Assembly (NCBI RefSeq): GCF_900187405.1
Contig: NZ_LT896716.1
Location: 124,001 to 188,000 of the forward strand
DNA from: Geobacter sp. DSM 9736
Lineage (GTDB): Bacteria > Desulfobacterota > Desulfuromonadia > Geobacterales > Geobacteraceae
DNA: 64,000 nt
Direction: 5' to 3'
Shown: piece after piece, positions 405 through 58,488 of the stretch
Layout of the letters: the number at the start of each line of letters is the position of its first letter
Position numbering within the stretch: the first letter of the stretch is position 1
Translations under genes and position numbers: made by a program
Notes under the pieces: model-generated
Databases searched by the model: none
Told to the model about the DNA's origin: nothing
Seen by the model: the letters and a program-made list of their open reading frames with translations, nothing else

Positions 405-2693
405 TCATCCCTTCTCGATGGGAATGGTGAAGCTGAAGGTGGATCCCTTTCCGGGGGCAGATTCAACCCAGATTCGACCGTGGTGCTGTTCCACGATCTT
501 CTTGCACGATGCCAGGCCGATCCCCGTGCCCGGATATTCCTCCCTTGTGTGGAGCCGCTGGAATATCTGAAATATCCGGTGAAAGTTCCGGGGCTCGATT
601 CCGATGCCGTTGTCGCTGATGGAAAAGAACCAGTGCATTCCTTCCCGTCGCGCCGAGACATGTATCCTCGGCGTCACTCCCGGTTTCCGGTACTTCAGGG
701 CGTTTGAGAGAAGATTCTGGAAGAGCTGGAGAAGCTGGGTTTCGGAGCCGCGGACACTGGGCAGTGCCTCCCGGGTAACGTCGGCTCCGCTCTCGGCGAT
801 GGCGGCCCTCAGGTTCGCCACGGCGCCGGCGAAGACCGCCTCCGTGTCCACCGTCCGGAGTTCTTCCTTGCGGGTAGTGATGCGGGACCAGGTGAGAAGG
901 CCTTCGATGAGCTTCTGCATCCGTGCTGCGCCGTCCACGGCGAATTCAATGTACTGCGTCGCCTTGTCGTCCAGCACTCCCTTGTACCTTCGCTCCAGGA
1001 GCTGAAGGTAACCAGTTATCATCCTGAGCGGCTCCTGCAGGTCGTGTGACGCCACGTATGCGAACTGCTCCAGTTCACGGTTCGAACGGGCCAGCTCCTC
1101 CATTGTCCGTTCAAGGGCTTCCTCTGCATCCTTGCGATCGGAGATGTCGAAAACGATCCCCGTCACCCGCCGCCTGTTCCCCTCCTGGTCGCAGTAGACC
1201 TTGCCTCGTCCCATGATCCAGTGGACGGAGCCGTCGGGCCACGTCACGCGGAATTCATCCTTGAAATGGCACGATGAACGGAGGGCATTCTCCATCGATT
1301 GCCGGATACGGTCCCGATCTTCCGGATGGAGAAGGGCCAGCAGGGATTCCGGCGAGTCGGGCTCCCCCGTGATGCCGAGAAGGCCGAGACACTGCTCCGA
1401 GAAGGCGGGCTTCCGGTTCTGCATGTCCCAGCTCCAGATGCCGATGCCTGCTCCCGCCTGGGCCATGGAGAGCCATTCCTCGTTCCTGCGCAGCGCCTCT
1501 TCAACCCGCTTCCGCTGGGTCACATCCTGGCCTATGCTGAGGATTCCGGCAAAGTCACCCTTTTCGTAAATTATCCTGTTGGTCCATGAAATCCAGACCC
1601 TTTCCCCGTTCCGCTTGACGTTCTCGTTTTCGTTCTGCTCATGCGCCGGTGGATTTCGCAGAATTGCCTCGGCCATTGCCGACATGTTCCTGCCGCGGCT
1701 GTCGGTTGTGGGCAGGATCGTATCGATGAGGGGTCTGCCTACCAGCTCCTCCTCCGCATAGCCGAAGAATTTCAATGCATACTGATTGGCGAAAGTGAGG
1801 ACTCCAGATCTGTCCATCCTGATGATGATGGAGTTCGCCCCCTGGACCAGTTCCCGGTACTTTTCCTCGCTTGCCTGCAGCCGGGTCTCGAAGTGTCTGC
1901 GTTCGGTATCATCCAGGGCGGACCCTATCATGCCGTTGATGCGCCCACGGTCCAGTAGCGGCACCACATTCAGAAGAAGCGTGCGCAGCGACCCGTCCTT
2001 GCGCACTATGGAGCATTCGTGTTCTTCCAGGCTGATTCCATGGGAAATCACGAGTCGGAGGCTCGATTCCAGCTGCGCAGCTGCCGATTCGTCGACCAGC
2101 ATCCGGAAGGGTTGTCCGAGGATCTCTTCGCACGGGTATCCGCACAACCTGATGGCTGCCATGTTGAGCCTGGTAAAGCGCCCCCACTCGTCCAGGACGA
2201 AGATCGCGCTGGACACTCCCTCCATGACCAGTTCGAGAAAGATGCTGGACTGGTTCAGTTCGTGTTCCAGGTCTTTGCGGGAGGTGATGTCGATATTCAC
2301 ACCTACCAGGCGTTCCGGCTCCCCCTTTTCGTCCCTGAAGAGCTGACCGCGCCCCTCCAGCCACCGAACCCTTCCATCCGGAAGCCGGACGCGCCACTCG
2401 GCCAGGAATGTTCCCGTTTCGAACGCCCGATGCATCTGCCGGACAGCTTCCGGAAGGTCCTCCGGGTACACGAGAGCCTGCCAGCCTTCGCAGGTGCATG
2501 GGAAGCTGCCTTCTTCGATGGCGTAAAGATACTGAAACTCTCCGGAGCAGGTGTAGGTGCCCTCCCTGATATTCCACTCGAAGAACCCGAGGCCGCCGAT
2601 CTTCTGAAGGAGCCGCATCTGCTCCTGGTTTTTCCGCAGCGCCTCCTGCGCTTCATTCTCCAGCCTGCGTTCCCTGCGGCTGCCGGTGCCCAT
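405..2693 (-). CDS. PAS(x4) sensor histidine kinase with phytochrome-type kinase module
   Basis: A 762-residue cytoplasmic kinase with no membrane segment. Four PAS-like domains can be followed at about residues 30-145, 148-268, 272-392 and 400-522, each ending in a D-x-(T/S)-x-R-K PAC signature. The kinase core begins SNRELEQFAYVASHDLQEPL, with the phosphoacceptor His near residue 550. It has the N box QNLLSNALKY, G1 DNGIGIEP and G2 GTGIGLASCKK. The ATG at 2693 has AGGAG six bases upstream. A promoter (2758-2785) precedes it, so it is probably its own unit downstream of the chemosensory operon. The core is almost the same as in five other kinases of this window. The ligand is unknown; multiple PAS domains suggest small-molecule, redox or gas sensing, which is inference. 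Confidence 0.92.
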   Translation of the reverse strand: MGTGSRRERRLENEAQEALRKNQEQMRLLQKIGGLGFFEWNIREGTYTCSGEFQYLYAIEEGSFPCTCEGWQALVYPEDLPEAVRQMHRAFETGTFLAEWRVRLPDGRVRWLEGRGQLFRDEKGEPERLVGVNIDITSRKDLEHELNQSSIFLELVMEGVSSAIFVLDEWGRFTRLNMAAIRLCGYPCEEILGQPFRMLVDESAAAQLESSLRLVISHGISLEEHECSIVRKDGSLRTLLLNVVPLLDRGRINGMIGSALDDTERRHFETRLQASEEKYRELVQGANSIIIRMDRSGVLTFANQYALKFFGYAEEELVGRPLIDTILPTTDSRGRNMSAMAEAILRNPPAHEQNENENVKRNGERVWISWTNRIIYEKGDFAGILSIGQDVTQRKRVEEALRRNEEWLSMAQAGAGIGIWSWDMQNRKPAFSEQCLGLLGITGEPDSPESLLALLHPEDRDRIRQSMENALRSSCHFKDEFRVTWPDGSVHWIMGRGKVYCDQEGNRRRVTGIVFDISDRKDAEEALERTMEELARSNRELEQFAYVASHDLQEPLRMITGYLQLLERRYKGVLDDKATQYIEFAVDGAARMQKLIEGLLTWSRITTRKEELRTVDTEAVFAGAVANLRAAIAESGADVTREALPSVRGSETQLLQLFQNLLSNALKYRKPGVTPRIHVSARREGMHWFFSISDNGIGIEPRNFHRIFQIFQRLHTREEYPGTGIGLASCKKIVEQHHGRIWVESAPGKGSTFSFTIPIEKG

Positions 2694-2844: not shown

Positions 2845-4281
2845 TCAATTGAAACTGCCAGGAATTTCTCCGTCGATATCTCCATCTGCTCCTTTTGCCG
2901 GCAGCGAGAAAAGGAATGTACTTCCCGCACCCGGTTCAGCCTCGACCCACATCCGGCCGTGGTGGCGTTCGACGATCTTTTTGCAGGAAGCGAGTCCTAT
3001 GCCGGTGCCCGGGTACTCCTCCAGGGTGTGGAGGCGCTGGAATATCTGGAAGATCCGCTCTTTGTGCTGTGGCTCGATCCCGATGCCGTTGTCCCTCACC
3101 GAGAACACCCATTCCGCCCCCTCACGGTGTGCAGAGACTTGCACCCGCGGGGGGATGCCCGGTTTCCGGTATTTCAGGGCGTTGGCCATCAGGTTCTGGA
3201 AGAGCTGAAGGAGCTGGGTTTCATCCCCGAGCACCGTGGGGAGCGGATCGGCGTTTACCTCCCCCCCCGATTCCTGAACTACCCTCTTCAGGTTTGCGAG
3301 TGCTCCTTCGAAGACCGCATTGGTGTTTACCGGGGTAAATTCGGCGCCCCGGCTGAGACGGGAATAGTTCAGGAGTCCCTCGATGAGTTTCTGCATCCGG
3401 GCGGCGCCGTCGACGGCATAATTGATGTAGGTTTCCGCCTTCTCGTCAAGCCGCTCACTGTATCTGCGCTGGAGCAGCTGCATGTAGCTCGCCACCATGC
3501 GGAGCGGTTCCTGAAGGTCGTGTGAGGCAACGTAGGCAAACTGCTCCAGGTCCCGGTTGGATTGCTCCAGCCGCGCGACCGTCTCGCGCAGTTCCTCCGT
3601 CCGTTTTTCCACCAGCTCTTCGAGCTGCCGCCGGTACCTGGTGAGCTCCCGCTCTGCCTGTTTCCGTTCTTCTATCTCCGCCATGAGCTGTGCCGTCCGT
3701 ACATCCACCTTTGTTTCCAGCTCGTCGTTCAGGGCTTCGAGATTGCGGCGGGCTTCCGATAGCTCCCCCGTGCGGCGCACCGCGGCTTCATAGACCGACA
3801 GAAGGAGGTCGAGTATCTGCTTCCTGTCGGACCTGATGACGTAGCGCTCCCCTTGGAAATGAAGCTCTACAGCGTTTGCCGGAGGGGGCTCTCCCGAGGG
3901 GGAAGGCCTGTAGAGCAGGTGTCTGATGCGGCTCAGGAGGTAGGGCTCGTCGTACGGCTTCGTGAGAAAGCTGTCGGCGCCGCACTGCAATCCCTTCAGC
4001 ACGTCATGTGACTCCGCAAGGGAGGTGAGGAGCATAACCGGGATATCTCTGGTGTCATCCTGCTTCTTGATGCCTGAGCAGAGGCTGAATCCGTCCAGCT
4101 CCGGCATGATGATATCGCTTATGATGAGAACGGGCCTGACCTGCCGGACCTTTTCCAGGGCTTCCCGGCCGTTTCGGGCCACCGCAGCCGTATAGCCGTT
4201 CTTTTCCAGTACGTGCCGCAGCTGTTCCGCCTGGGTCATGCTGTCTTCGGCTATCAGAATCGTTCCCCTGTTTCCGTTCAC
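2845..4281 (-). CDS. Receiver-histidine kinase (REC-coiled coil-HK), probable output of the chemosensory operon
   Basis: A 478-residue protein. Residues about 7-120 form a receiver with acidic pair ED, phosphoacceptor Asp56 in ISDIIMPELDG and a KPYDEPY loop. A charged coiled coil follows (about 150-245), then the same kinase core as its paralogues (ASHDLQEPLRMVASYMQLL, acceptor His near 257) and an ATPase domain ending in a GTGIGLASCKK box. The start is a GTG at 4281 that overlaps the cheB stop codon (GTGA), with AAAGGA upstream, so the two are translationally coupled. It is the last gene of the Wsp-like operon, in the place where Wsp systems have a receiver-GGDEF protein. It is therefore probably phosphorylated by the CheA at 5380-7578 and passes the signal on to an unknown regulator (inference). 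Confidence 0.9.
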   Translation of the reverse strand: MNGNRGTILIAEDSMTQAEQLRHVLEKNGYTAAVARNGREALEKVRQVRPVLIISDIIMPELDGFSLCSGIKKQDDTRDIPVMLLTSLAESHDVLKGLQCGADSFLTKPYDEPYLLSRIRHLLYRPSPSGEPPPANAVELHFQGERYVIRSDRKQILDLLLSVYEAAVRRTGELSEARRNLEALNDELETKVDVRTAQLMAEIEERKQAERELTRYRRQLEELVEKRTEELRETVARLEQSNRDLEQFAYVASHDLQEPLRMVASYMQLLQRRYSERLDEKAETYINYAVDGAARMQKLIEGLLNYSRLSRGAEFTPVNTNAVFEGALANLKRVVQESGGEVNADPLPTVLGDETQLLQLFQNLMANALKYRKPGIPPRVQVSAHREGAEWVFSVRDNGIGIEPQHKERIFQIFQRLHTLEEYPGTGIGLASCKKIVERHHGRMWVEAEPGAGSTFLFSLPAKGADGDIDGEIPGSFN

Positions 4282-5336
4282 TGGATATTCCTTTCCTCTG
4301 GGTGCTTCATCGTAAGCTCCCGCAGAAACGCCGGCATCCGTTCCGGAGCCAGTTCATGAAGAGCGGCGCCGAGCTGGAGAGCGGCCGCAGGCATCCCGAA
4401 GACGGCGCATGTCTCGCGTGACTGAGCTATCGTCACCGCACCCTTCTGCCGCAGGAGGAGCATTCCGTCGGCCCCGTCCTCTCCCATACCTGTCAGCAGA
4501 AGGGCTGCTGCTCTCCCCCCATAGGAGGCGGCCACCGACCGGAAGAGGCAGCAGACCGAAGGGCGCGCGCCATGTTCGGGTGCGCCTCTGGACAGGCAAA
4601 TCGTGCCATGGCGCGTCACTTCCATATGGATATCATCCGGTGCAAAATAGACGTGTCCAGGGGCCAGGACCTCTCCGTCAACGGCAATGTGGAGGGGGAG
4701 GGGGCAGCTCTGGCCGAGCCATTCCATCATCCCGGGAAGAAACCCCGCTGCCAGGTGCTGTACGACAACTACAGGCAGAGGAAAATCGGGGGGCAGACCC
4801 CCCAGGATCGTGTGGAGCACGGGAGGCCCTCCCGTGGAGGCGCCGATGGCGACGATGGAGAGCGCGCACCAGGGGGGGCAGCTGACGGCAGGAAGCCTGT
4901 TGGCGGGAGGCTTTGCGCCGCGGCTCCAGCGCCGGACTACCTTCACCTCCGCCATGAGACGCACCGTCCGCCGCAGTTCCTCGGCCAGCTTCCGGTACTC
5001 CGGGTTTCCCGGTCCCGGCGGGCGCCGGACCGTGGCCAGCGCCCCCGCTTCCATGGCCCGGAAGGTGGTCTGCACCTCGGTGGGGTTCCAGATGCCGCTC
5101 ACAATGACGATCGGCACCGGCGAGGTCTCCATGATGCGTCGCGTCGCCTCCAGACCGTCCATCCGGGGCATCACGATGTCCATGGTCACCACATCCGGCC
5201 TGAGCCTCCTCACCATCTCCACCGCCTGCAGACCGTCGGCGGCGGTGCCGACGACACGCATGTCGCCGCTGGAGAGGATGTGGACGAGAAGTTCCCTTGC
5301 CACAGGAGAGTCTTCCACCACGAGCACCGAGATCAT
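4278..5336 (-). CDS. cheB: CheB-type protein-glutamate methylesterase (WspF-like)
   Basis: A 352-residue CheB. The receiver domain (residues 1-125) has the acceptor Asp in VTMDIVMPRMDG. The C-terminal methylesterase domain (about 160-340) shows the catalytic Ser in GASTGGP, the His in VVQHLAAGF and the Asp in TGMGEDGADGM. CheB removes methyl groups from receptor glutamates and deamidates glutamines, setting adaptation of the array. The ATG at 5336 has GGAGG seven bases upstream. The gene sits between cheA-REC and the receiver-kinase. All catalytic residues are present, so it should be active. Confidence 0.95.
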   Translation of the reverse strand: MISVLVVEDSPVARELLVHILSSGDMRVVGTAADGLQAVEMVRRLRPDVVTMDIVMPRMDGLEATRRIMETSPVPIVIVSGIWNPTEVQTTFRAMEAGALATVRRPPGPGNPEYRKLAEELRRTVRLMAEVKVVRRWSRGAKPPANRLPAVSCPPWCALSIVAIGASTGGPPVLHTILGGLPPDFPLPVVVVQHLAAGFLPGMMEWLGQSCPLPLHIAVDGEVLAPGHVYFAPDDIHMEVTRHGTICLSRGAPEHGARPSVCCLFRSVAASYGGRAAALLLTGMGEDGADGMLLLRQKGAVTIAQSRETCAVFGMPAAALQLGAALHELAPERMPAFLRELTMKHPEERNIQ

Positions 5337-5379
5337 GGCCCCGCCTCCGTCCCGGCGGCATACTCTTCCGCACGTCCCT

Positions 5380-7578
5380 TCACAGCAGCCTCCTGATCAC
5401 TTCCAGGAGGTTGCTCTGGTCGAAGCTGCTTTTCACCAGGTATGCGCTTGCTCCCGCGTCGATGCCCCGCTCCTGGTCCTCCCGGGAGGCGAGGGAGGTT
5501 ACTATTATCACCGGCAGTGAAGCCAGACGGCGGTCGCTCCTGATCTTCGCCGTCAGCTCGAACCCGTTCATTCCGGGCATGTCGACATCGGAAACGACGA
5601 GATCGAAGTCTGCTTCCTGAAGGGTCCTGAATCCCTCCACGCCGTCCACCGCGGTGCGGACAGCGTACCCTGCCGCCTGCAGGATGTTCTTGAGAAGCGA
5701 CCGCGAGGTGATGGAATCTTCGACCACGAGGATCGATTTCACCTTCCTCTCCGCCTCTTCTTCATGAGCCTCGGGAGCCGGTGGGGGGGGCGCCCGCAGA
5801 GCTGATTTTATCAGGTCCGGCACGTTGAGAATCGGGACGACCTCACCGTTGCCCAGAATGGTAGCGGCCAGAACGTTCCTGACCCTAGGCAACTGGGGGC
5901 CCAGATGTTTTACGAGCACCTCCTGCTCATGGAGAACCTCGTCCACGCGGAAGGCTACACGTTCACCTCCTGCGCCGAGGATGACGAGCCTCGCAAAGGG
6001 TGAGGTGGCGGCGGAGCCATGCGCAGCAAGCTCCAGTACCGTTTCCAGGAGCGCCACCGGAATGATCCTCCCGTTGGCGATAACCGTGTTCCTGCGGATT
6101 TCGTCGGCCCCCACACGGGCCGTCCGCCTGACGGCGGTGGAGGGTATGACGAAATGCCGCTCGCCGCACCTGACCAGCAGCCCCCGGAATGTTGCCAACG
6201 TGAGGGGGAGGAGGATGCGGAAAAGAGTTCCCTTTCCCCCGGCCGTTTCGCAACCGATGGAGCCTCCAAGACGTTCCACCCGCTCCCGTACGATTGCCAG
6301 CCCCAGCCCGCGCCCGGAGATCTCTGTGATCATCCGGCTTGCGGAGACACCTGAGCGGAACATCAGCGATGCAACCCCCTCTTCGTTGAGCCGCTCGGCT
6401 TCCTCGGGGGATATCAATCCGAGGCGCACCGCCGAGTTTTTTACCCTTTCCGGATCGATCCCCTTTCCGTCATCGGCCACTATCAGCTCTATCCATTGCC
6501 CCTCCCTGTATCCGATCTCGATGCGCAGTTCCCCGGTTTCGTCCTTTCCGCTCGCTCTCCGTTCTTCGGGGTTCTCGATGCCGTGATCGATGCAGTTGCG
6601 GACCAGATGTATGAGGGGTTCCCGCATCTCGTCCAGGATGCGCCGGTCCGCTTCTATCTCCCCCCCGGTGACCAGAAGCCTCACCTGCTTCCCCTGGTCG
6701 TGTGCCAGATCCCGGACGACTTTTCCCATCATGTCGAGGAGTGACGAGAAGGGGAACATCGAGACGGACTTGAGGGTGTCGAGGAGCGTGTCGATCATCA
6801 TGGCGGCGGAGCGCCTGTCCTGGTCGAGCCGGTTGTTCATCTTTCCGAGGGCGCCGGAAAGGGACGCCAGCCTTTCCGACACCTGCTGCAGACGGGGTGA
6901 GTTCCGAACCTCCGAATCTTTCATCTCTCCCTGGAGCACCGACCATTCATTGGCCAGTTCCGCCGCGGCAACGGCCGCTCCCGCCATCTCCGACGACCGC
7001 TGGGCCGCTGCCTGCTTGAGAGCCAGGAACCCCTCCCCCTGAAGGAGGAGCAAATCGAGCTTGGTCTTTGCTACCCGCACCGTCTCGGCCATGAGCAGAT
7101 GGGCTGCCTGAGGGGGGGGGACCCCCTCTGCCGGAGAAAGGGGGGGGACTTCTGCAACGGGAGTCTCCTCCCTGCGGGTGATGATGTCGCTGAGCCCGCT
7201 GACGATTTCCCGGGCGGGGCCGCGTTCCGCCGAATCATCCTCAGGGGAGGCCAGCATGGCATAAAGCAGGTTGACTGCGCGGTGAAGGATGTCGAAGAGT
7301 CGGGGGGAAAGTGTGAGCTCCTTTTTCTTCAGGGCGGCGAAAACGCTCTCCAGCGACTGGCAGATCCGCTCGATTCCCGACAGGTTCACGGAGCGAGCGG
7401 CACCCTTCATGCTGTGCGCTTCACGGAAGATGATTTCCACCACCCGTTCCGCTTCTTCGGCGGGCATGTTCCTTTCAAGCTCCAGGAGGGATGATGCGAT
7501 TACCTCCAGGTGCTCCGCCCCCTCCGCCTTGAAGGTTTCGAGAAGTCTTTTCAGGAATTCGGCATCACGGTCGTCCAT
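5380..7578 (-). CDS. cheA: CheA-type hybrid kinase with C-terminal receiver (WspE-like)
   Basis: A 732-residue CheA. The N-terminal Hpt domain has the acceptor His55 in FREAHSMKGAARS. A long linker of about 200 residues follows, then the dimerisation segment, the ATPase domain (HLVRNCIDHGIE, DDGKGIDP, GRGLGLAIVRERVE) at about 280-460, a CheW-like P5 domain (about 465-600) and a receiver (about 612-732) with acceptor Asp in VVSDVDMPGMNG. A CheA fused to a receiver is the WspE/FrzE arrangement of non-flagellar arrays; the receiver may act as phosphate sink or modulator. No CheY-binding P2 domain is recognisable. Probable targets are its own receiver, CheB and the receiver-kinase downstream. Confidence 0.95.
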   Translation of the reverse strand: MDDRDAEFLKRLLETFKAEGAEHLEVIASSLLELERNMPAEEAERVVEIIFREAHSMKGAARSVNLSGIERICQSLESVFAALKKKELTLSPRLFDILHRAVNLLYAMLASPEDDSAERGPAREIVSGLSDIITRREETPVAEVPPLSPAEGVPPPQAAHLLMAETVRVAKTKLDLLLLQGEGFLALKQAAAQRSSEMAGAAVAAAELANEWSVLQGEMKDSEVRNSPRLQQVSERLASLSGALGKMNNRLDQDRRSAAMMIDTLLDTLKSVSMFPFSSLLDMMGKVVRDLAHDQGKQVRLLVTGGEIEADRRILDEMREPLIHLVRNCIDHGIENPEERRASGKDETGELRIEIGYREGQWIELIVADDGKGIDPERVKNSAVRLGLISPEEAERLNEEGVASLMFRSGVSASRMITEISGRGLGLAIVRERVERLGGSIGCETAGGKGTLFRILLPLTLATFRGLLVRCGERHFVIPSTAVRRTARVGADEIRRNTVIANGRIIPVALLETVLELAAHGSAATSPFARLVILGAGGERVAFRVDEVLHEQEVLVKHLGPQLPRVRNVLAATILGNGEVVPILNVPDLIKSALRAPPPPAPEAHEEEAERKVKSILVVEDSITSRSLLKNILQAAGYAVRTAVDGVEGFRTLQEADFDLVVSDVDMPGMNGFELTAKIRSDRRLASLPVIIVTSLASREDQERGIDAGASAYLVKSSFDQSNLLEVIRRLL

Positions 7579-7646
7579 CCATAAACTCCCCTTGCAACGT
7601 GAAGCAGGTAGAGGTAAGCGTCAGCGAACGGTACGTTTGCCTGTTC

Positions 7647-9401
7647 CTAGATGCGGTACCTCGATACCAGCTCTTTCAGCTTCCCCCCCAGCTGGTGGAT
7701 GTTGCGTGCCGCCGCTTCCACCTGCCGGGTGCCCATCACGTTCTGTTCGCTCGCCTGCTTGATGTTCTCCATCGCGGTGAGAACCTGTTCCATCCCTATC
7801 AGTTGCTGCTGGCTGGAGGCGGCAATCTGGGAGGCGGCTTCCGCAGCTTCCACTATGCTCGCGGAGAGACTCCTGATCGATTCGCCTGCTCGTATGGACT
7901 GATGCACCCCTTCGTCCACGGTCTTGCTCCCCTGCTCCGTCGCCAGTACCGCGGCGCTGGTCGCTTTCTGTATGTCGTTGAGGATGGTGCGCACCTGGGC
8001 GGTGGCCTGCTTCGATTGTTCGGCGAGGTTCTTCACTTCCTGGGCGACGACTGAAAACCCTTTTCCGTGTTCCCCCGCCTTGGCCGCCTCTATGGCGGCA
8101 TTGACCGCCAGCAGGTTCGACTGCTCCGCCAGGTCGTTCACCGTTGCGATGATTTCCCCGATGGCCTGGCTCTGTTCGCTCAGCATGATGATCCGCCCGG
8201 CGATGGATTCCATCTGTTGGCGGATTCCCTTCATCCTCTCGGCCACCTCCTCCACCGTGCTGCTGCCGGACTCGGATATCTGCACCGCCCTTTGGGCGGC
8301 TTCCGCCACCCGGTTGGCCTTCTCGGTGGAAACCTCCGAGGTCTGCCGCACCTCTTCGGTGGTGGTTGTCGTTTCTACAACGGCGGAAGCGGTCTCGGTA
8401 ACGCTGGCCGCTACCTGGGTGGTCGAGGAGAGTATCTGCCCGGCGGAGTTGGCGATGATGTTGACTGCGTCCTGGATTTCCGCCGTCATCGTCCTGAGCG
8501 CGTCCGACATGGTGGTGAGAGCCCGGCCTAGGCTGTCTCGCTGCGACTGGACACCCAATACGGCGGAGAGATTTCCCGATGCGACCTGCTCCGCCATCTC
8601 GGCCACGCGTCCCAGGTAGCCGTTCATCTGCTGGAATGCCAGAGTCAGCTGGCCGACCTCGTCGTGCCGCTCCCTGGGTATCTCCGGGGTGCTGAAATCC
8701 CCCGAAGCTATTGCCTGCGCGCGTGCAGTAAGTTCTTTCAGCGGATCGGAGATGGCGCGGTTGAGGAGGGTGGTGAGGAAAATTGCCGCAACCAGCGCCA
8801 TGGCGCTTATCGTAGTGAAGATCCTTCCGAGCCTGTCCACGCTTTTCGACGCTGCACTGATTTCACCCTCCGCCCGTTTCTGGATCTGGGTGATAAGGTC
8901 GTCGGTCACGGCTCCCATCTGCCTGTTTCGCTCCTGCTGGACGCCGAAGAGAAGCAGCTTCGCCTTCTCCGCCTCGCCGGCCATTATGAGCGGTATCTCC
9001 TGCTCGAATCTCGTCTGAACGAACTCCTTGCGTAACGACATAAGTTCCTTGAGACGGGGGAAGAACACCGGCTCGTTCTGCAGGCGTTTCTCAAGACGCG
9101 TGAAAAGCTCATCGTTATTCTCCGTCTGTTTCCGGATCTCCTGAAGCGAGCGGTCCCGTAAGAGACGGTCATCGCTGGAAGCCATCTCGATAGTGTGTGC
9201 CCTTGTGGCGAACTGGTTTGTCCGGATGTCCTTGAGCTCGAGGGCGGTTGCGAAATCCATCTCGTATATCCGCCGCTGTGAAGCCTCGATCTGCCTGATG
9301 CCGTAGTACGAGGTAAGCACCACGGCGGCGAGTAGAAGGATCATCACTGTGAAGGAGAGGGTGAATTTGCTTCGTGCCGTTATGTCGTGGAACCACCTCA
9401 T
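7647..9401 (-). CDS. Methyl-accepting chemotaxis protein (WspA-like)
   Basis: A 584-residue receptor. It has transmembrane helix 1 at about residues 12-33, a periplasmic four-helix-bundle type sensor of about 160 residues (to residue 195), a second membrane helix at about 197-217, a HAMP domain, and a cytoplasmic signalling helix pair. The conserved tip [20 protein letters not shown] is intact, so it should bind CheA and CheW. It ends [10 protein letters not shown] and lacks a CheR-docking pentapeptide. GGAGG stands seven bases before the ATG at 9401. It is the only receptor inside this operon, so it probably supplies the signal for the whole array. The ligand is unknown; Wsp receptors respond to surface contact, but that cannot be carried over from sequence alone. 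Confidence 0.95.
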
Positions 9402-9423
9402 GGGTCGTCCTCCTCTCGAATGG

Positions 9424-10041
9424 TCATCCCGCTTCTTCGTTCACGATCAGACGCGGGTCCGCCAGGATGGCGGCAACGTCGAGAACTGCTGTACGGTCTT
9501 CCGTCATTCCCTTGATGTATGCGCTGTTAATTCCGGCGGAACCGGCTCCTTCCTGGAGCGCCTTGCGGGGCAGCATCCGGACGCCGAGAATACGGTCGGC
9601 CAAGACGCCGAGCTCCATACCGCCGGTGCTTAGTATGATGATCCCCGCGCCCTCCCTCCTCCTCTCTCCTGAGATGCCGAAAAAGATTTCGAGGTCAGTC
9701 AGCGACAGGAGCATCCCCCTGATGTTCATGATCCCCGCGATGAAGGGGGGCGTGCAGGGGAGGGGAACCAGATCCCGGAGCGGATGGACTTCCCGGACGT
9801 ACCCGATATCGATACCGTACTGATGCTCACCGAGGAGGAAGTCCAGGATATGCAACGTTTCTTCCGGCTCCCTCCGTTCCGGAGGACGTGCCAGGTCCCG
9901 CGCCCGCTTCTCCAGTATTCGGCGCCGCGCTTCCTGGTCAGGCAACCATTCCTGCCCGGCTCTGACCGCCGCCTCTTCAAGGCGGGCATGAACCGCCCGC
10001 CAGTCGATGGATCCGGTATCTTCTCCGCTGAACTCCTTCAC
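9424..10041 (-). CDS. cheW: CheW adaptor with N-terminal extension (WspD-like)
   Basis: A 205-residue protein. Residues 1-62 are a charged extension ([18 protein letters not shown]...) similar in style to WspD-type adaptors. Residues about 63-200 form a CheW domain starting [20 protein letters not shown], with the conserved NIRG segment at [17 protein letters not shown]. CheW joins receptors to CheA. The start is a GTG at 10041 with AAGGAG ten bases before it. This is the second of two CheW genes flanking cheR. The order cheW-cheR-cheW matches wspB-wspC-wspD. Confidence 0.93.
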
Positions 10042-10115
10042 TCGCTGACCGCTCCTTCAAATCCGCCATTCAACGCGCCGGCAGCCACAAGGGTGATTCA
10101 GCCTCCCCCCTGGGC

Positions 10116-11603
10116 CTATACAGCCGTTCTTCCGGTCATGGCGGTGGTGATCATCTCCCGCATCCTTCCCGCTGTGATTCCCTCCGTAAGCGGGACTACA
10201 TCGTCGCGCCCCATTCGTTCCAGCACCAGAAGGGCGTATCCGAAATGCCGGTCCGCCTCGCGGCGCGCCGTCCTCCGCAGAGCCAGGTTCCCCCTGGCAA
10301 AGTGGGCGACTATCAGGTCATGGTCCAGGTAGAGCGCCCGCTTCAGGGCCAGGTCCTCCTCTTCGGCCAGGTCCATTTCCTGGAGTATCGTCGCCAGAAG
10401 CACATAGAGGCCCGCGTTAAGCTTGTCACCCGATATTGCCTGTTCGCACAGCTCGCGTGCACGCTGCAGCCGTCCCAGATTTGCCTGCACCCTTGCCATC
10501 AGCTCAATGACGCTGCTGCGTGCGTCACGCACCATAAGCTCTTTCAGCATCTCTTCCGCATCGCCGTAGCGCCCGCTGCGGTAGGCCTCTTCAGCGTCCC
10601 TGTAGAGATCGGAAGGGGGGGGAGGCGGAGCCGGTTCCGGGGCTTTGCGCGCCGCCGAACCGGGGGGCGCTACAATCGGTCTCTGCTGGGAGATCGTCAT
10701 TTGCGGAGCCGAGACCCGCGAGGATGGCGGAGCGGGTCGAACCCGACCATCCTCCCCCTCCTTGACGTAATAGACCCACCCAGGAAGCCTCATCTCCGAA
10801 AAGGGTGAAAATACAGAGGGGGAGGACTCGGTGGGGCTGGCCGCCAGAATGCCCCGGTGAACGAGGCAACGGTGGAACTTGCGCACCACGTCCGCCTGCT
10901 GCTGTTGCGTGAAGTACATCAGGACGTTGCGGCAGAAGATTAAGTCCATGGCGTTGGTGCGGTTCAGGAGAGAAGGGTACAGGTCGTCGGCCAGGTTCAG
11001 ATAGGAGAAGGTTACGCAGTCCTGGAGGCTGGGAACGATCCGGTAGCGTCTGGGAGCCACCGCAGTGAAGTAGCGCTCCCTGATCCGGGGCGCGACGGAG
11101 CGGAACGACCAGTCGCCATAGATCCCTTCCCTGGCCTTTCGCAGGAAGCCAGGGTTTATGTCGGTTCCCAGGATCGTGATGTTCCATTCTTCCATGTCAG
11201 GCAGCAGCCGGCTCAGGAGTATGGCCACCGAGTACGGTTCCTCACCCGTGGCGCAGCCCGCGGACCAGATGCGGAGGTGCCTGCCGTTGCCCCTGCGGTC
11301 GCGGATCAGTGGCGGGAATACATCCCGCTCCAGAGTTTCGAACATTTTAGGGTCCCGGAAAAAGTAGGTTTCCCCGATGGTGAGGTGGCTGGCCAGGATC
11401 TCCACCTGGTGTTTCGACAGGGGGGCCTGCATCAGCCACCGCACGCAATCCTCGTCGTCGTCGAACCCGAATTCCCTGGAAGCCCACCCGATGCCTCTCA
11501 TCAGGTCCGAATGCCGCTCCCGCGGGAAACGGAGCCCCATGTGCAACGAGATGTACTCGCTGAACCTGAGGAGGAGTTCTTCGGAGATCCGGCGTTGGGT
11601 CAT
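10116..11603 (-). CDS. cheR: CheR-type receptor methyltransferase with TPR-like C-terminus (WspC-like)
   Basis: A 495-residue protein. Residues about 5-270 form the CheR fold: a helical N-terminal domain, the SAM-binding motif IWSAGCATGEEPYSVAI, and the later LIFCRNVLMYFT. It transfers methyl groups from SAM to glutamates of receptors. A proline-rich linker (about 315-335) leads to tetratricopeptide-like helices (about 335-460), with a DAEEAYRSGRYGDAEEMLKEL repeat. TPR fusions to CheR are seen in WspC and FrzF. Its ATG overlaps the stop of the upstream cheW (ATGA), with a strong GGAGGGGG site. The TPR part probably recruits the enzyme to a partner, replacing the missing pentapeptide on the receptor (inference). 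Confidence 0.95.
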   Translation of the reverse strand: MTQRRISEELLLRFSEYISLHMGLRFPRERHSDLMRGIGWASREFGFDDDEDCVRWLMQAPLSKHQVEILASHLTIGETYFFRDPKMFETLERDVFPPLIRDRRGNGRHLRIWSAGCATGEEPYSVAILLSRLLPDMEEWNITILGTDINPGFLRKAREGIYGDWSFRSVAPRIRERYFTAVAPRRYRIVPSLQDCVTFSYLNLADDLYPSLLNRTNAMDLIFCRNVLMYFTQQQQADVVRKFHRCLVHRGILAASPTESSPSVFSPFSEMRLPGWVYYVKEGEDGRVRPAPPSSRVSAPQMTISQQRPIVAPPGSAARKAPEPAPPPPPSDLYRDAEEAYRSGRYGDAEEMLKELMVRDARSSVIELMARVQANLGRLQRARELCEQAISGDKLNAGLYVLLATILQEMDLAEEEDLALKRALYLDHDLIVAHFARGNLALRRTARREADRHFGYALLVLERMGRDDVVPLTEGITAGRMREMITTAMTGRTAV

Positions 11604-12094
11604 GGTCCCCCTCCGCTGTCGGCGGGAAGCGCACCGTCCAGGGGGGCGAGGAGAATGTCGAGGTCGTGGATGACGACGAGGCCGTCGGGCAGGGTGAGAA
11701 CACCTTCAACGGCCTCAAGGCCGGAGAGTATCTGCGATGCGGGTGCCAAGCGCCCCCCGGGGAGGACTCCTTCGACCGAATCGACCAGTAGTGCCGCCAT
11801 GCGGCGCGGGGTTCTCGCGATGAGGAGCTGATCCGTGAGGAGAATCTCGCGGGGGGGGATGCCGAGACGTCGCCGCAGGTCGATTACCAGTGTTATTGTC
11901 CCCGCTATATCGATTACTCCAGCAACCTCTTCAGGCGCTCCCGGAAGAGGGGTCACCTCCACTGCCTGCACGACTTTTTCCACCACTCGCAGGGGGAGAG
12001 CGAGCCGGTGCCCTTCGACGGAGAATAGAACGAGACGCTCTTCTCTCCTTTCGGGCTCTCCTGATCTTCTGAGGCGCGGCGTCTCCATGGTCAC
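11600..12094 (-). CDS. cheW: CheW adaptor (WspB-like), first gene of the chemosensory operon
   Basis: A CheW domain of about 155 residues: RLVLFSVEGHRLALPLRVVE, then VAGVIDIAGTITLVIDLRRRLG. It couples receptor to CheA. Start choice: GAGGAG lies six bases before a GTG at 12094, and an ATG follows at 12088; an upstream GTG at 12112 is open but poorly placed. The gene overlaps cheR by four bases. Promoter B (12155-12182) stands just upstream, so this gene probably opens the operon that runs to 2845. The C-terminal tail after the CheW core is acidic and glycine-rich. Confidence 0.9.
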   Translation of the reverse strand: MTMETPRLRRSGEPERREERLVLFSVEGHRLALPLRVVEKVVQAVEVTPLPGAPEEVAGVIDIAGTITLVIDLRRRLGIPPREILLTDQLLIARTPRRMAALLVDSVEGVLPGGRLAPASQILSGLEAVEGVLTLPDGLVVIHDLDILLAPLDGALPADSGGGP

Positions 12095-12154
12095 GATGAT
12101 CTCCTCGCCCACCGCCTGTTTCAGATGTGTATCAGTTGTTACCTCTCTCCATTA

Positions 12155-12209: not shown

Positions 12210-14753
12210 TCAGCCTTCTGTCTGATCCTCCCGAGCGGGGATGGAAAAGAAGAAGGTCGTGCCTTTTCCCGGTGTGGACTCAACCCAGATACGTCCGCCA
12301 TGGCGCTCGACGATCTTCTTGCAGGAGGCGAGGCCGATGCCGGTGCCGGGGTACTCGTCCTGGGTGTGTAGCCGCTGGAAGACCTGAAATATCCTGTCGA
12401 AAAAGCGGGGCTCGATCCCTATGCCGTTGTCGGAAACGGAGAAGACCCAGTCCGCCTCCTCTCTGCTGCAGGAAAGGTGAATGCGGGGGGGCGCATCGGC
12501 CCTGCGGTACTTGAGGGCGTTACCTATCAGGTTCTGCAGGAGCTGGAGAATCTGTATCTCATCCCCCCACACTGTAGGGAGGGTATCGGTGGTGACGACA
12601 GCTTCCGCCTCCTTGACGGCGGCCTGCAGGTTGTCGATGGCGGCCCTGCATGCCGCGGCGGCATCCACCGGGCCGAAGGCTGCTCCCTGGGAGATTCTCG
12701 AATAGCCGAGGAGGCCTTCTACCAGTTTCTGCATCCTCGTCGTCCCATCCACTGCGAAACCTATGTACTGCCGCGCCTTGTCGTCGAGCATGTCGGCGTA
12801 TTTGCGCTGCAGCAGACCCATGTAGCCGGAGATCATCCGGAGCGGCTCCTGGAGGTCGTGGGAGGCGACGTAGGCGAACTGTTCCAGTTCACGGTTTGAA
12901 CGGGCAAGTTCCGCCAGGGTCTGCCGAAGGGCCTCCTCCGCTTCCTTCCTTTCGGTAATGTCCCGGTAGTAGACCTCCAGGAGCCCATCCCGCGGATAGG
13001 CGTGGACTTCGTGCCACCTGTCGTTTATCCGGGAGCGTCCCTCGAAATGCACCGGTCGGTTCTCCTGCATGGCCGCGAGGTAGTGCCGGTGGAATTCGCT
13101 TCCCACCACCCGGGGGAACTCTTCCCAGAACACCTTGCCCAAGAGTCCTGCGGCAGGCCTTCCGAAGAGCCTTTCCGCATGTTCGTTGATCTCCACCAGC
13201 CTCCATTCCTGGTCGAGGACGAAGTAGGCGTCGGTGATGCTCGAAATGATCCCGTTGAGCCGCAGGGTCAGCTTCTCCGCCTCGGAGAAGAGCCGCGCGT
13301 TTTCAAGGGCCAGCGATGCCGACGCCGCTACTTTCTCCGTGAAGTCTATGTCGCCGGCAGGCGTGAAGCCAGTCTTTCTCCACCCGTATCCCAGCACGCC
13401 GAAGACCTCTCCCCGGCTGATGAGGGGCACGATCAGGAGGGAACGCGCCCCATGCTCGCCGGCAAGCCTCCGGTTCAGTTGCCTGTCCGCCTCGACATCG
13501 GGACAGACATACGTTCTTCCCGTCCGACGGACCAGGGTGAACGCGCGGAGCTCCTCCATGGGAAAGGATGCGCCGAGCATGTCGCGAGACAGGTTATGCA
13601 CGTACCGGATTATCCATTCGCCTGCCTGGAACATGGCGACTGTAACCATGTCGGCGCCTATGCAGACGGCGGCTTCGGCAATGCTCTTCTCGATGATCGT
13701 GTCGGCGTCGTGGGTGGACATGAGAAGAGAGTTGATGCCGTTCAGGCAGTCGCCAAGCCCCTTCTCCCTGGCCATCCACTGTTCGGCGCTCTTTCTGCCG
13801 GTTATGTCGATGGTGATCGCCATGGCTTCGCTTCTGCCGTCGAGCTTCGTACCCGCAAAAAGCCCCCAGAACCTGGTGCCGTCCTTGCGGAGGTACTCCT
13901 TCTCGTACGGGGCCATCCGTCCCGTCGCCTCCAGTTCCTCCATTGCCGCCAGGGTTCGGCCCATCCATTCCGGAGGCGTCAGGCGGTCCCAGCGTATCTC
14001 TCCCCGGTCGAGTTCTTCCCTTGTGAAGCCGACCAGGGAGAGCCATGGACCGTTTGCTCCCACCACGCGGCCGTCAAGCTCGAAGTAGGCGATGCCGAAA
14101 ATGCCGCTTTCGCTCAGGCAGCGGAAATACATCTCGGTCTCCCGCAGCGCCTGTTCCGCCTGTGACCGTTCCCGAAAGAGAATGGCGTTTTTGAGGGCAA
14201 GGCCCAGGGACGCGGCGACCCTGTTCACGAAATCGATTTCCAGGTCGGAAAAGGTGCGGCCGGGGGTGTGATAGTGGAGGGAGAAATCGCCGATCATATC
14301 CTCTCCGACCATTATCGCCGCATCGATAAGCGCCCTGATGCCGTAGCGCTCATTGGTCTGCCGGTCGGCACGTTCGTCGTTGAGGGCGTCATCGATCACA
14401 ACCGTTCGCCGCTCGCGGCATGCCCACACCGAATAGCGCACTTCGGTCTCCGCCAGCGCACCGTCGACCTCCTCACGCGGCATCCCGTAGGTGTACCGGG
14501 GAACCCACCGCTCCGCCTCCGGCATGTAGATTACCGCCGACTCCGCTCCCACCCCCCGCGCCGTCTCCACGACCACCTGCTGCATGATCTCGTCGAAGTC
14601 GAGGGCCGAGTGGATGAGGGAGTTGATGCGGTCCAGTTCGCCGCTGAAGTGGCGGATCTTCTCCAGGAGCCCCCCCAGCCGCCGCACTTCGTCGGCGAGC
14701 TGCGCTTCCCGCTGGCTGCATCCCGGATCGCCTGTTCTGTGGTTACCGTCCAT
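12210..14753 (-). CDS. GAF-PAS-GAF-PAS sensor histidine kinase
   Basis: An 847-residue soluble kinase. A GAF domain (about 30-185, INSLIHSALDFDEIMQQVV) is followed by PAS (about 190-315), a second GAF (about 325-490), a second PAS (about 495-612), then the shared core SNRELEQFAYVASHDLQEPL (acceptor His near 635) and ATPase domain. The first GAF is closely similar to that of the kinase at 17296-20223, including a DFSLHYHT-x-GRTF segment, so these two arose by duplication. There is no PHY domain and no obvious bilin-binding Cys, so a light sensor is not supported. AGAGG stands five bases before the ATG. It lies 19 bases after the response regulator at 14773-15222 in the same direction, suggesting one transcript. 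Confidence 0.92.
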   Translation of the reverse strand: MDGNHRTGDPGCSQREAQLADEVRRLGGLLEKIRHFSGELDRINSLIHSALDFDEIMQQVVVETARGVGAESAVIYMPEAERWVPRYTYGMPREEVDGALAETEVRYSVWACRERRTVVIDDALNDERADRQTNERYGIRALIDAAIMVGEDMIGDFSLHYHTPGRTFSDLEIDFVNRVAASLGLALKNAILFRERSQAEQALRETEMYFRCLSESGIFGIAYFELDGRVVGANGPWLSLVGFTREELDRGEIRWDRLTPPEWMGRTLAAMEELEATGRMAPYEKEYLRKDGTRFWGLFAGTKLDGRSEAMAITIDITGRKSAEQWMAREKGLGDCLNGINSLLMSTHDADTIIEKSIAEAAVCIGADMVTVAMFQAGEWIIRYVHNLSRDMLGASFPMEELRAFTLVRRTGRTYVCPDVEADRQLNRRLAGEHGARSLLIVPLISRGEVFGVLGYGWRKTGFTPAGDIDFTEKVAASASLALENARLFSEAEKLTLRLNGIISSITDAYFVLDQEWRLVEINEHAERLFGRPAAGLLGKVFWEEFPRVVGSEFHRHYLAAMQENRPVHFEGRSRINDRWHEVHAYPRDGLLEVYYRDITERKEAEEALRQTLAELARSNRELEQFAYVASHDLQEPLRMISGYMGLLQRKYADMLDDKARQYIGFAVDGTTRMQKLVEGLLGYSRISQGAAFGPVDAAAACRAAIDNLQAAVKEAEAVVTTDTLPTVWGDEIQILQLLQNLIGNALKYRRADAPPRIHLSCSREEADWVFSVSDNGIGIEPRFFDRIFQVFQRLHTQDEYPGTGIGLASCKKIVERHGGRIWVESTPGKGTTFFFSIPAREDQTEG

Positions 14754-14772: not shown

Positions 14773-15222
14773 CTACCGGCTCGGCGGGAGCTTGGCTATC
14801 CCGAACCAGAAATCCTCCATGCTCTTCACCATATCGAAAAGCTGAGTTATCCCCACCGGTTTGGTGATGTAGCAGTTGGCGTGGAGCATATAGCTTCTCA
14901 TGATGTCCTCCTCCGATTCGGAGGTGGTGAGGACGACGATGGGTATCGTTTTCAGTTCAGGGTCCCTCTTTACCTCGGCAAGCAGCTCCCGCCCATCCTT
15001 CCGGGGAAGGTTCAGGTCGAGGATTACGAGGTCGGGCCGAGGGGCCGCCACATGGCTTCCCCGCCGGTGCAGAAAGTCGAGCCCTTCCTCGCCGTCGTTT
15101 GCCAGATGCACCGCCGTCCGCACCGGCGTTTCCTTCAGCACTTCCTGCATGAGGAAAGCGTCCGCCTCGTTATCCTCCACCAGGAGGATCTCCATGGTTC
15201 TGCCCGGATTGCCGCTATTCAT
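14773..15222 (-). CDS. Rcp1-like single-domain response regulator
   Basis: A 149-residue stand-alone receiver: TMEILLVEDNEADAFLMQEVL, acceptor Asp in DLVILDLNLPRKDGRELL, Thr in VVLTTSESEEDI and Lys in CYITKPVGITQLF. The insertion between the acidic pocket and strand 3 matches the Rcp1 family, partners of phytochrome-type kinases. The start at 15222 is preferred because AAGGAG lies seven bases upstream; longer forms would run far into the preceding kinase. It overlaps the end of the kinase at 15215 by eight bases and precedes the kinase at 12210-14753, so it may serve both. There is no output domain, so it acts as a phosphate relay or binds a partner. Confidence 0.92.
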   Translation of the reverse strand: MNSGNPGRTMEILLVEDNEADAFLMQEVLKETPVRTAVHLANDGEEGLDFLHRRGSHVAAPRPDLVILDLNLPRKDGRELLAEVKRDPELKTIPIVVLTTSESEEDIMRSYMLHANCYITKPVGITQLFDMVKSMEDFWFGIAKLPPSR

Positions 15223-17101
15223 GTCCGACTTCTCCTTTTCTCTCCCGGCTGATTCCCACTCCTTTGGGAAGTGTGAAGAAGAAGGTGGCTCCTTCACCCG
15301 GGGCCGATTCGACCCGGATGCTTCCCCCATGATGCTCGACGATCTTCTTGCAGATGGCGAGCCCCATCCCCGTCCCCTGGTACCGCTGGCGGGTGTGGAG
15401 CCGCTGGAAGATGTGAAAGATCCTGTCGAAGAACCGCGGCTCTATGCCGATGCCGTTGTCACGGACGAAAAATTCCCACATTTCTTCCTGCTCGCGAGCG
15501 CCGACCCGCACCACCGGGGCGGTTCCGGGCTTCCTGAATTTCAGCGCGTTGGACAGCAGGTTCTGGACGAGCTGCACGAGGAGATATTCGTTTCCCCAGA
15601 CTGCCGGGAGCTGATCGACGTCGAGGGCCCCCCCGGTATCTTCAAGCTCCTGCCGGACGTTCAGCGCCCCCTGGCGCACCACCCTCTCCATCGCAACCAG
15701 TTCCCTTTCCCTGTTCTTTTCACCTATCCGGGTAAAGGTCAGCAGGTCGCCGATCAGGGAGTGGATCTGCTTTGCTCCGTCTGCGGCGAAGCGTATGTAG
15801 GTGTTGGCCTGCTCGTCCAGCCGGTCCGTGTACCGCAGCGCCAGAAGCTCCACGTACCTGGCCACCGCCCGCAGGGGCTCCTGGAGATCGTGGGAGGCTA
15901 CGTAGGCGAACTGCTCCAGCTCCCGGTTGGAACGGGAAAGTTCATCCAGCGCCGTCTGAAGCTTTTCTTCCGCCTGCTTTTGAGGATCTATGTCGGTGCA
16001 GGTGCCGAACCAGCGGATGATATTCCCCTCCCTGTCCCGCAGCGGCAGCGCTCGTCCGAGAAACCAGTGATAAGCGCCGTTGGCCCCCTTGAAACGGTAC
16101 TCTATCTCGTACGGTTCTCCCGTTTCGAGACTGTGGTGCCAGCGTTCAAGGGTCCTCCGGTAGTCGTCGGGATGCAGGAGCAGCGACCAGAGTTCCCCCT
16201 GCGTCTCCACCGGAAGGAGGCCCGTGAATTCGTGCCACTTGCTGTTGAAGTATTCATGATAGCCGTCGGGACGGGTAATCCAGACCAGTTGCGGCAACGC
16301 CTCCGTAAGTTGCCGGAACTGCGCCTCGCTCTGGCGCAGCGCTTCCTCCACGGCATGCCGCTCTGTCAGGTCGAGCATGGAGCCGATCATCCGGACTGCT
16401 CTTCCCCCCTCGTCACGAGCGATGATCCCCCTGTCGTAGAAGGTACCGTAGGAGCCGTCCTTGCGACGGAAGCGGTACTCGGCACCCCATGTGTCGGCCT
16501 TGCCGGTAATGGCGGCTTCAATCCCTGCAAGTATCTCTTCACGTTCCTGGGGGTGTATCCGCTCGGCCCAGCCGGAAAAGGCGCCCCCCAACTCATCGGG
16601 GGTGCAGCCGAAGGCCTTCTCTACCGCGTCGTTCCACTGGACCTCGTTGGATGCCACGTCCCAGTCCCATATGACGTCGGTTGTCGCACGGCTCACCAGG
16701 GCGTACCGTTCCTGGGCATTTTCCAGCTCATGCTCGCGCTGCTTCATCTCCGTGATTTCACGCGAGATTCCGCACAGGACCACCGTTCCCTCCTCGTCAC
16801 GCAGTGCGAATTTGTCGGTGAGGAAGATGTGCTGCCGGCCGCCGATGGTCAGCACTTCCTCGGCTGAGACCCCCCTGCCGGCTTCCTGTCGTGCCTGCTC
16901 GTCCTCCCTGCGTACAGTTTCAGCTTCTGTCGCAGGAAGCAGATCGAAGTCGGTTTTGCCTATAATGGCGTGGCGTGAGAGCTCGAAGAGTTCCTCGAAG
17001 CAGCGGTTGACGGAGATGTAGCGGCCTTCCGAATCTTTCAGATAGATGGCGGCGGGAGAATGATAGAAGATTGCCTGGCAGATCTGTGGAATGTCTTTCA
17101 T
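15215..17101 (-). CDS. PAS(x3) sensor histidine kinase
   Basis: A 628-residue soluble kinase. Three PAS domains lie at about 1-125 (IFYHSPAAIYLKDSEGRYIS), 130-255 and 258-385, each closing with a PAC motif. The shared kinase core follows (SNRELEQFAYVASHDLQEPL, acceptor His near 410). N box QNLLSNALKF and G2 GTGMGLAICKK are intact. The promoter at 17177-17204 precedes it. The ribosome site is weak. The stop overlaps the start of the Rcp1-like regulator, so the pair forms a two-component unit with the kinase at 12210 behind it. Its core is the most divergent of the set (RAVARYVELLALRY in place of RMISGY-type sequence). Confidence 0.92.
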   Translation of the reverse strand: MKDIPQICQAIFYHSPAAIYLKDSEGRYISVNRCFEELFELSRHAIIGKTDFDLLPATEAETVRREDEQARQEAGRGVSAEEVLTIGGRQHIFLTDKFALRDEEGTVVLCGISREITEMKQREHELENAQERYALVSRATTDVIWDWDVASNEVQWNDAVEKAFGCTPDELGGAFSGWAERIHPQEREEILAGIEAAITGKADTWGAEYRFRRKDGSYGTFYDRGIIARDEGGRAVRMIGSMLDLTERHAVEEALRQSEAQFRQLTEALPQLVWITRPDGYHEYFNSKWHEFTGLLPVETQGELWSLLLHPDDYRRTLERWHHSLETGEPYEIEYRFKGANGAYHWFLGRALPLRDREGNIIRWFGTCTDIDPQKQAEEKLQTALDELSRSNRELEQFAYVASHDLQEPLRAVARYVELLALRYTDRLDEQANTYIRFAADGAKQIHSLIGDLLTFTRIGEKNRERELVAMERVVRQGALNVRQELEDTGGALDVDQLPAVWGNEYLLVQLVQNLLSNALKFRKPGTAPVVRVGAREQEEMWEFFVRDNGIGIEPRFFDRIFHIFQRLHTRQRYQGTGMGLAICKKIVEHHGGSIRVESAPGEGATFFFTLPKGVGISRERKGEVGHE

Positions 17102-20223: not shown

Positions 20224-20352
20224 CGGGCCTCCAGACAACAGGTAAAGGTATTCGTTCGCTACGCTCACATGTAGAGGTAGAGAATAAACCCTCACCTTCA
20301 TTGAATTCGTGTTTCGCCTTTCTTTACCTCTACCTTTACCTTTACCTGCCTT
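20224..20352. repeat. Short GGTAAA/GGTAGA repeat tract between two kinase genes
   Basis: The gap between the kinase genes holds several copies of GGTAAA or GGTAGA. On the minus strand four occur in a row at about 20322-20346. More lie at 20241-20250 and 20271-20276 in the opposite reading. A related AGGTAGAGGTAAG lies at 7605-7617, before the cheA-REC gene. No promoter of the shared type is seen here. Confidence 0.4.
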
Positions 20353-53306: not shown

Positions 53307-53307
53307 G

Positions 53308-53706
53308 ATGAGAACACTGATAGTGGAAGACGATTTTATTGCACGCAGGCTGCTTAAAGAGATCCTCACTCCTCTTGGGGACTGCGATGTTGCAATAAAC
53401 GGCAGAGAGGCCGTCCAGGCCTTCAGGATGGCTCTCGACGACAAGAAACCGTACGATCTGATCACGATGGATATCATGATGCCCGGGATGGACGGACAGG
53501 AAGCGCTGAAGCTTATCCGTGAAATCGAGAAGGAACGGAGCATACCTCCTTCATCCGAAGTGAAGGTCATAATGACGACTGCTCTGGACGATCCGAAGAA
53601 CGTGGTGGAGGCTTATTACCATGGAGGCGCCACCTCATACATCGTGAAGCCTATCAGTAAAGGTAAGCTCATGAATGAAATCAGGGGGTTCGGGCTCCTG
53701 GCGTAA
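53308..53706 (+). CDS. CheY-like response regulator
   Basis: A 132-residue receiver: MRTLIVEDDFIARRLLKEIL, acceptor Asp in LITMDIMMPGMDGQEAL, Thr in VIMTTALDDPKN and Lys in SYIVKPISKGKL. AAGGAG lies before the ATG, one base after the hybrid kinase stop. It is a likely target of the Hpt domain next door and of CheA downstream. Confidence 0.92.
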   Translation: MRTLIVEDDFIARRLLKEILTPLGDCDVAINGREAVQAFRMALDDKKPYDLITMDIMMPGMDGQEALKLIREIEKERSIPPSSEVKVIMTTALDDPKNVVEAYYHGGATSYIVKPISKGKLMNEIRGFGLLA

Positions 53707-55615: not shown

Positions 55616-55659
55616 CGACCTGTCGGCCTCTGGAGAGGCGTGAACAGAGGGGGTAACGG

Positions 55660-58480: not shown

Positions 58481-58488
58481 TTACCCAT

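Follow-up and report, generated by a model that had tools for sequence, protein, structure and literature searches.

The 64,000-nucleotide stretch of the Geobacter sp. DSM 9736 genome analysed here (C1:124001-188000 of a genome assembled as one contig of 3,957,683 bases; hereafter, the window) contains a chemosensory operon of seven genes that runs on the reverse strand from 12112 to 2845, with intergenic gaps of -4 to +74 bases. The genes are arranged in the order CheW, CheR, CheW, methyl-accepting chemotaxis protein (MCP), CheA fused to a receiver (REC), CheB and a REC-HisKA-HATPase protein, which we refer to as RHK (Table 1). The start of the RHK gene overlaps the stop of cheB by 4 bases. 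The open reading frames and Pfam domains bore out the seven genes, their places and their common strand as given in the original prediction, apart from the operon end: position 12094 corresponds to a later in-frame GTG, and the first CheW gene reaches 12112, also with a GTG start. All named domains exceeded the Pfam cut-offs except the tail of CheR. The predicted CheR-TPR protein has a clear CheR domain, and its tail of ~230 residues gave a weak TPR_19 match (23.6 bits, under the cut-off of 25).

In CheA, His55 of the Hpt domain, Asp664 of the receiver and the nucleotide boxes are intact, as are the GASTGGP motif of CheB and, in RHK, the receiver Asp56, His254 in ASHDLQEP and the N, G1, F and G2 boxes; we assume that these are the functionally important residues. 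The MCP has hydrophobic (membrane) stretches at residues 10-36 and 191-218 with a four-helix-bundle sensor domain between them. No hydrophobic stretch of membrane-helix length was found in RHK, which is thus predicted to be soluble. Promoter scans (3 found against 3.9 expected) and terminator-like scans (24 found against 15.1 expected, sd 4.6) were of little use. The operon possesses the MCP, CheA and CheW core together with a multidomain response regulator, REC-HisKA-HATPase, as its output; the passages of the CheR-TPR survey that define the ACF pathway include such a regulator as the output (PMC3447774).

Table 1 Features of the chemosensory operon and of the neighbouring kinase genes (positions in the window)
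Feature	Position	Strand	Basis
CheW (first)	11600-12112	-	PF01584 E=1.7e-22; GTG start
CheR methyltransferase, weak C-terminal TPR	10116-11603	-	PF01739 E=3.3e-49
CheW (second)	9424-10041	-	PF01584 E=2.7e-26
MCP (4HB-HAMP-MCP)	7647-9401	-	PF12729, PF00672, PF00015
CheA fused to receiver (Hpt-HATPase-CheW-REC)	5380-7578	-	Pfam domains
CheB methylesterase (REC-CheB)	4278-5336	-	PF00072; PF01339 E=1.9e-57
RHK, REC-connector-coiled coil-HisKA-HATPase, array output	2845-4281	-	Pfam; motifs
RHK receiver, residues 8-120, phospho-acceptor Asp56	3922-4260	-	PF00072 E=1.4e-25
RHK connector, residues 138-184, class marker	3730-3870	-	profile match E=1.9e-20
RHK kinase core (HisKA-HATPase, His254)	2893-3549	-	identity, tree
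Sibling kinase PASx4-HK, core 68%	405-2693	-	Pfam, identity
Sibling kinase GAF/PAS-HK, core 65%	12210-14753	-	Pfam, identity
Rcp1-like single receiver, putative target of RHK and its siblings	14773-15222	-	PF00072; target role inferred
Sibling kinase PAS-HK, core 54%	15215-17101	-	Pfam, identity
Sibling kinase GAF/PAS-HK, core 70%	17296-20301	-	Pfam, identity
Sibling kinase Cache-PAS-HK, core 63%	20353-22533	-	Pfam, identity

The N-terminal head of RHK consists of the receiver followed by a connector of ~47 residues. This constant head is common to the aligned outputs of related clusters, in which the connector follows the consensus xxIxFxGxxYxIxxDRxQILDLLLSTYExAxxKNxEL. RHK was assigned to the REC-connector output class at E=1.9e-20, with a query alignment that has RHK itself as its first row. 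An AlphaFold2 prediction with 79 heads (mean pLDDT 90.5) shows the receiver, a beta hairpin at residues 138-149 and a single helix at 153-199, which reaches the end of the modelled piece. The connector had no Pfam match at E<=1, and among the 25 NCBIfam families examined (of 152 matching RHK) none had its best stretch inside it. PDB sequences yielded no match to the single connector sequence and only weak matches to the profile (best E=0.087). Foldseek matches to the head ran through the receiver; a receiver from a Syntrophus histidine kinase (3gt7) led the top 50, in which 3bre (PA3702), which we take to be WspR, ranked 33. A description of the connector was not found in the literature searched by description, which covered mostly open-access papers, titles and abstracts.

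These data raise the question of how closely the connector is tied to one kind of chemosensory cluster. CheA was searched in 147 genomes, including that of the window, and matches were obtained in 58 of them at E<=1e-100 and in 47 at >=42% identity; this line for the CheA class was set after seeing the match list, in which the next matches had 39% and lower. The window CheA is 42-56% identical to its own class. The order cheW-cheR-cheW-mcp-cheA-cheB-REC-X recurs around CheA in relatives and, because it does so in dozens of them, is not due to chance. A connector output was present in 48 of 60 CheA-centred regions; of the other 12, nine have a CheA of lower identity (33-38%), two are truncated at the end of a contig, and one is L153. 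A profile search at E<=1e-5 placed the connector in RHK alone within the own genome, at 75 places in 48 of the 147 genomes of relatives, and at 60 places in 49 of 395 genomes sampled from the phylum. Both connector and CheA class were found in 45 of the 147 genomes, only CheA in two, only the connector in three and neither in 97. Both regions of the CheA-only genomes stop at a contig end, and the connector-only cases come from contigs of 4.7-7.9 kb; che genes are present on two of these. The connector was present in none of the 11 genomes with only a lower-identity CheA. We examined the regions of 69 of the 75 places in relatives (window included) and, for genomes not of this order, of 40 of 57 places; CheA was found in 35 of these 40, and with a receiver in 33. 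The connector also lies beside a same-class CheA in records of Oxalobacteraceae, Gallionella, Bacteroidales (two) and Synergistales, the first five of an 80-locus list.

The rule is not strict. Plasmid searches with CheA, CheR and REC-GGDEF, which were the source of the sequences compared from Azospirillum, Sinorhizobium, Niveispirillum and Burkholderia, gave mostly more distant sequences among the matches listed, and they include a same-class cluster in Niveispirillum without a regulator beside cheB; the same holds for L153 (G047:C35). Two of the 35 phylum regions with CheA (L303 and L323) have a receiver-less CheA that lies outside the class in the tree, and in L175 the connector adjoins a CheA of only 39% identity. 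Five phylum loci, one of them near a contig end, lack CheA, and unlinked REC-connector-GGDEF proteins were found in genus g13 and in genome G005. Moreover, the connector rows do not form one clade in the CheA tree: 62 of 70 fall in a starred clade of 66, six are adjacent and two lie elsewhere. The four members of this clade without a connector are Niveispirillum, L153 and two loci cut by contig ends. In genus g13 (L246, L247, L257, L259), where the unlinked proteins have ~870-940 aa, the che cluster also has a connector kinase, and the unlinked protein is possibly a second output of the same array.

What follows the constant head is variable. In the CheA-centred regions of relatives, 49 of 53 connector proteins, found in 48 regions, carry a kinase tail (42 plain and seven with an extra receiver). 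The phylum sample (n=40) contained nine kinases, 15 kinase-receiver hybrids, five GGDEF proteins, four with PAS/GAF only and seven in which no domain was seen, three of which hold HD_5 by Pfam; the local domain hidden Markov models used were built on sequences of the window and the own genome with one iteration, and are blind to unseeded families. The connector outputs of Oxalobacteraceae and Gallionella are GGDEF-EAL proteins. Even the kinase tails differ in their H boxes, 24 of them fitting none of the patterns defined. Across 55 dereplicated loci with kinase-tailed outputs, the rank correlation with CheA distance was 0.45 for the head versus 0.29 for the tail, and among 634 pairs of loci with heads >=45% identical, 250 had tails below 25%. 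Short head-connector proteins of 253-263 aa without a known output domain also occur (L308, L309, L316, L160, L166), followed in all but the last by a REC-GGDEF gene.

Heads that track CheA distance also bear on the possibility that the RHK receiver accepts phosphoryl groups from its own kinase, as a reversed hybrid kinase in which the array merely localises the protein. The two domains do share one chain, but the receiver is N-terminal, and the head is nearest to other che-cluster heads (57% identity at best), as against <=39% for own-genome receivers in the searched set. We regard this arrangement as improbable.

The tail of RHK has a different affinity from its head. The kinase core is 63-70% identical to the cores of seven kinases of the own genome and 52-54% to two more, the nine together spanning 50-71% in a second comparison, and to each of 82 other connector kinases it is <=39% identical. 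In a tree of 95 cores, RHK nests among the own kinases (98/95 and 100/98, starred), and the 60 other connector kinases are placed elsewhere. RHK is thus a head of the connector class joined to a core of the local sensor-kinase type; since the core is so close to the genome's own sensor kinases yet so distant from other connector kinases, RHK probably became a chimera by domain swap. The core family is not confined to this genome. A search of 58 genomes of relatives matched the core in 12 at E<=1e-65, and of the five g10 genomes covered, three have 7-9 copies at 50-70% identity and lack the connector. The genome set includes no congener of the window genome, which leaves the swap undated.

The operon sits within a run of same-strand kinase genes that includes one single receiver, 14773-15222. 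The core of RHK had been said to equal those of the neighbouring kinases: the similarity is real, 54-70% to five kinases over ~235 residues, but it falls short of equality, and a domain swap explains it best. The label 'phytochrome-type' suits the core, if this is, as we presume, the name of the core type, but not the whole protein, in which Pfam finds no phytochrome sensor domain. By sequence, RHK has its dimerisation and docking helices in common with the neighbouring kinases, so shared targets or mixed dimers are plausible. Tight clusters of kinases with an RHK-type core, some with stop codons in their frames, are also present in four genomes of the same family or order (G054:C36, G009, G015, G028); they look like local duplication of the sensor-kinase family.

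Another important question is whether the operon descends from Wsp, with a kinase having replaced WspR. The parts list is indeed the same (receptor, two CheW, CheR-TPR, CheA-REC, CheB and a regulator), which had led to the description 'Wsp-like', while the REC-GGDEF output, WspR, is not present. A precedent exists in Burkholderia cenocepacia, where, according to the passages on it, WspHRR, a REC-kinase, stands in WspR's place in a Wsp operon, is proposed to transfer to the predicted DNA-binding regulator RowR, implicated by suppressors, and has an effect described as c-di-GMP-independent (PMC8552884, PMC4324302). For comparison, we used an unannotated Burkholderia stagnalis record with one cluster carrying REC-GGDEF and one carrying REC-HATPase, taken from their parts as R- and H-type Wsp. 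The window proteins are 28-39% identical to these clusters in the longer matches (cheR, mcp, cheA, cheB). The window CheA is 35-36% identical to the two Burkholderia WspE-like proteins versus 45-47% to three connector-class loci, a quick CheA tree groups the two WspE-like rows (starred) with seven CheA of connector-less clusters, away from the main connector clade, and neither Burkholderia output matched the connector model. Descent from Wsp is disfavoured by CheA identity and tree, with two WspE-like sequences compared, and we consider it very improbable. Thus, the operon resembles WspH in plan but differs in CheA lineage and connector; as far as two rows tell, it would work like WspH and CheS3 without being Wsp by descent.

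CheS3 belongs to the Che3 system of Rhodospirillum centenum, for which two Azospirillum clusters that we take to be its kin served as stand-ins: their CheA proteins are 34-36% identical to that of the window, and the connector was not found in the regions examined. In the passages describing Che3, CheA3 phosphorylates REC1 of CheS3, only CheS3~P phosphorylates CheY3, and phosphorylation of REC1 turns the CheS3 kinase, and hence CheY3 phosphorylation, down, as shown biochemically (PMC3868531). This is the same route, from a CheA-REC to a receiver-kinase and on to a single receiver, as we propose here. CheR-TPR/ACF clusters follow the same multidomain-regulator plan, around 40% of their regulators holding a kinase module, and the survey passages mention neither a shared connector nor a swapped kinase core (Garcia-Fontana 2012, PMC3447774). 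With WspHRR, CheS3 and this survey as forerunners, a kinase output as such is not the unusual feature it was thought to be. Within Geobacter, che clusters with a CheA-receiver fusion, as here, are on record in passages that do not treat the output regulator (PMC2577667), and the Esn system, known here by description, combines MCP, CheW and CheA with a diguanylate cyclase (PMC5585712).

Taken together, we consider this to be a chemosensory operon of the ACF type with a chimeric receiver-kinase as its dedicated output, which would feed a shared single-receiver regulator, and we give this reading a probability of about 0.62. The sequence data show the gene set, the intact active-site residues, the conservation of the cassette and the chimeric build of RHK; for every transfer of phosphoryl groups, for whether the switch raises or lowers kinase activity and for the ultimate target, we rely on protein families and precedent. 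The MCP/CheW/CheA array would set CheA autophosphorylation, with receptor adaptation by CheR and CheB, and CheA~P would phosphorylate Asp56 of RHK, the receiver of CheA being probably a sink or competitor. The receiver-connector head may then relay the signal to the core as a twist or shift of the continuous helix, so that His254 is phosphorylated more or less, and RHK would feed a single receiver shared with the neighbouring PAS/GAF kinases, most likely an Rcp1-like one such as 14773-15222.

As predicted, the sole dedicated regulator of the operon, RHK, is a receiver-kinase and not a diguanylate cyclase. It could nevertheless be argued that the end product is c-di-GMP, formed either by a REC-GGDEF protein downstream of RHK or by a diguanylate cyclase elsewhere that CheA addresses directly. 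The genome has 20 GGDEF places, the head is carried on GGDEF in some relatives, and kinases with an RHK-type core lie near REC-GGDEF genes in L357, L360 and L362. Moreover, a REC-PAS-GGDEF gene lies left of the window (C1:121480-122763, + strand; L001:9480-10763), ~4 kb past RHK. This gene is, however, on the opposite strand, convergent with the operon, and separated from it by a kinase gene and a gene that is cytochrome-like by its CXXCH motifs. Because the connector occurs once in the genome, in RHK, none of the 20 GGDEF places carries the same receiver-connector plug at E<=1e-5, and a dedicated, connector-marked GGDEF partner is rejected; a GGDEF partner elsewhere as the real output had been named as overturning the proposal. 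We regard c-di-GMP as an unlikely end product.

The search for a cognate regulator yielded the Rcp1-like receiver 14773-15222 as a candidate, with which the kinase gene 15215-17101 overlaps by 8 bases. Receivers 47-58% identical to it were present in 10 of 25 core-family loci of relatives, which were taken with ~1.5 kb flanks and in part overlap. Several observations weigh against the proposed cascade. In the other 15 loci, the short flanks contain no Rcp1-like receiver, and REC-GGDEF genes lie near core-family kinases in three of the 25. The target is not unique, since 14773-15222 has three further receivers at 51-53% identity in the own genome (others <=37%), and the two own kinases next to Rcp1-like genes (15215-17101 and the one at C1:320527) are the least RHK-like of the family, at 50-56%. 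Finally, most phosphoryl groups of CheA~P might pass to the CheA receiver or to CheB instead. On balance, RHK probably links the array with a shared network of sensor kinases, whose endpoint is perhaps the Rcp1-like regulator 14773-15222.

A broader possibility is that receiver and connector together form the universal plug of one widespread chemosensory class, in which arrays are rewired by swapping what follows. Here, plug and local kinase core would pool the PAS/GAF sensors and the array, perhaps through mixed dimers. We put this forward tentatively, as somewhat less probable than its opposite. No firmer is the suggestion that the plug might contain, besides a transmission element serving very different outputs, a surface for recognising its own CheA.

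Two observations concern other chemosensory genes. The window contains a second chemosensory cluster at 51243-63008 (+), continuing to C1:189376, with an HK-REC-Hpt hybrid, single receivers, three MCP genes and a receiver-less CheA (56318-58480); a CheW lies beyond the window edge. In L046 and L047, the CheA is of Alcanivorax type, is 2176-2329 aa long and has seven Hpt matches.

Chemosensory arrays with a kinase as output are already established, and the operon in this respect adds a member. What is new here is the plug defined by the connector, the constant head with variable outputs and the swap of the tail. If the broader possibility is true, the plug on an unlinked GGDEF protein in genus g13 predicts a branched output. 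The connector is a sequence handle that may predict the pairing of regulators with arrays, including unlinked regulators, and it gives a natural series of outputs on one switch, which lets receiver control of unrelated enzymes be tested.

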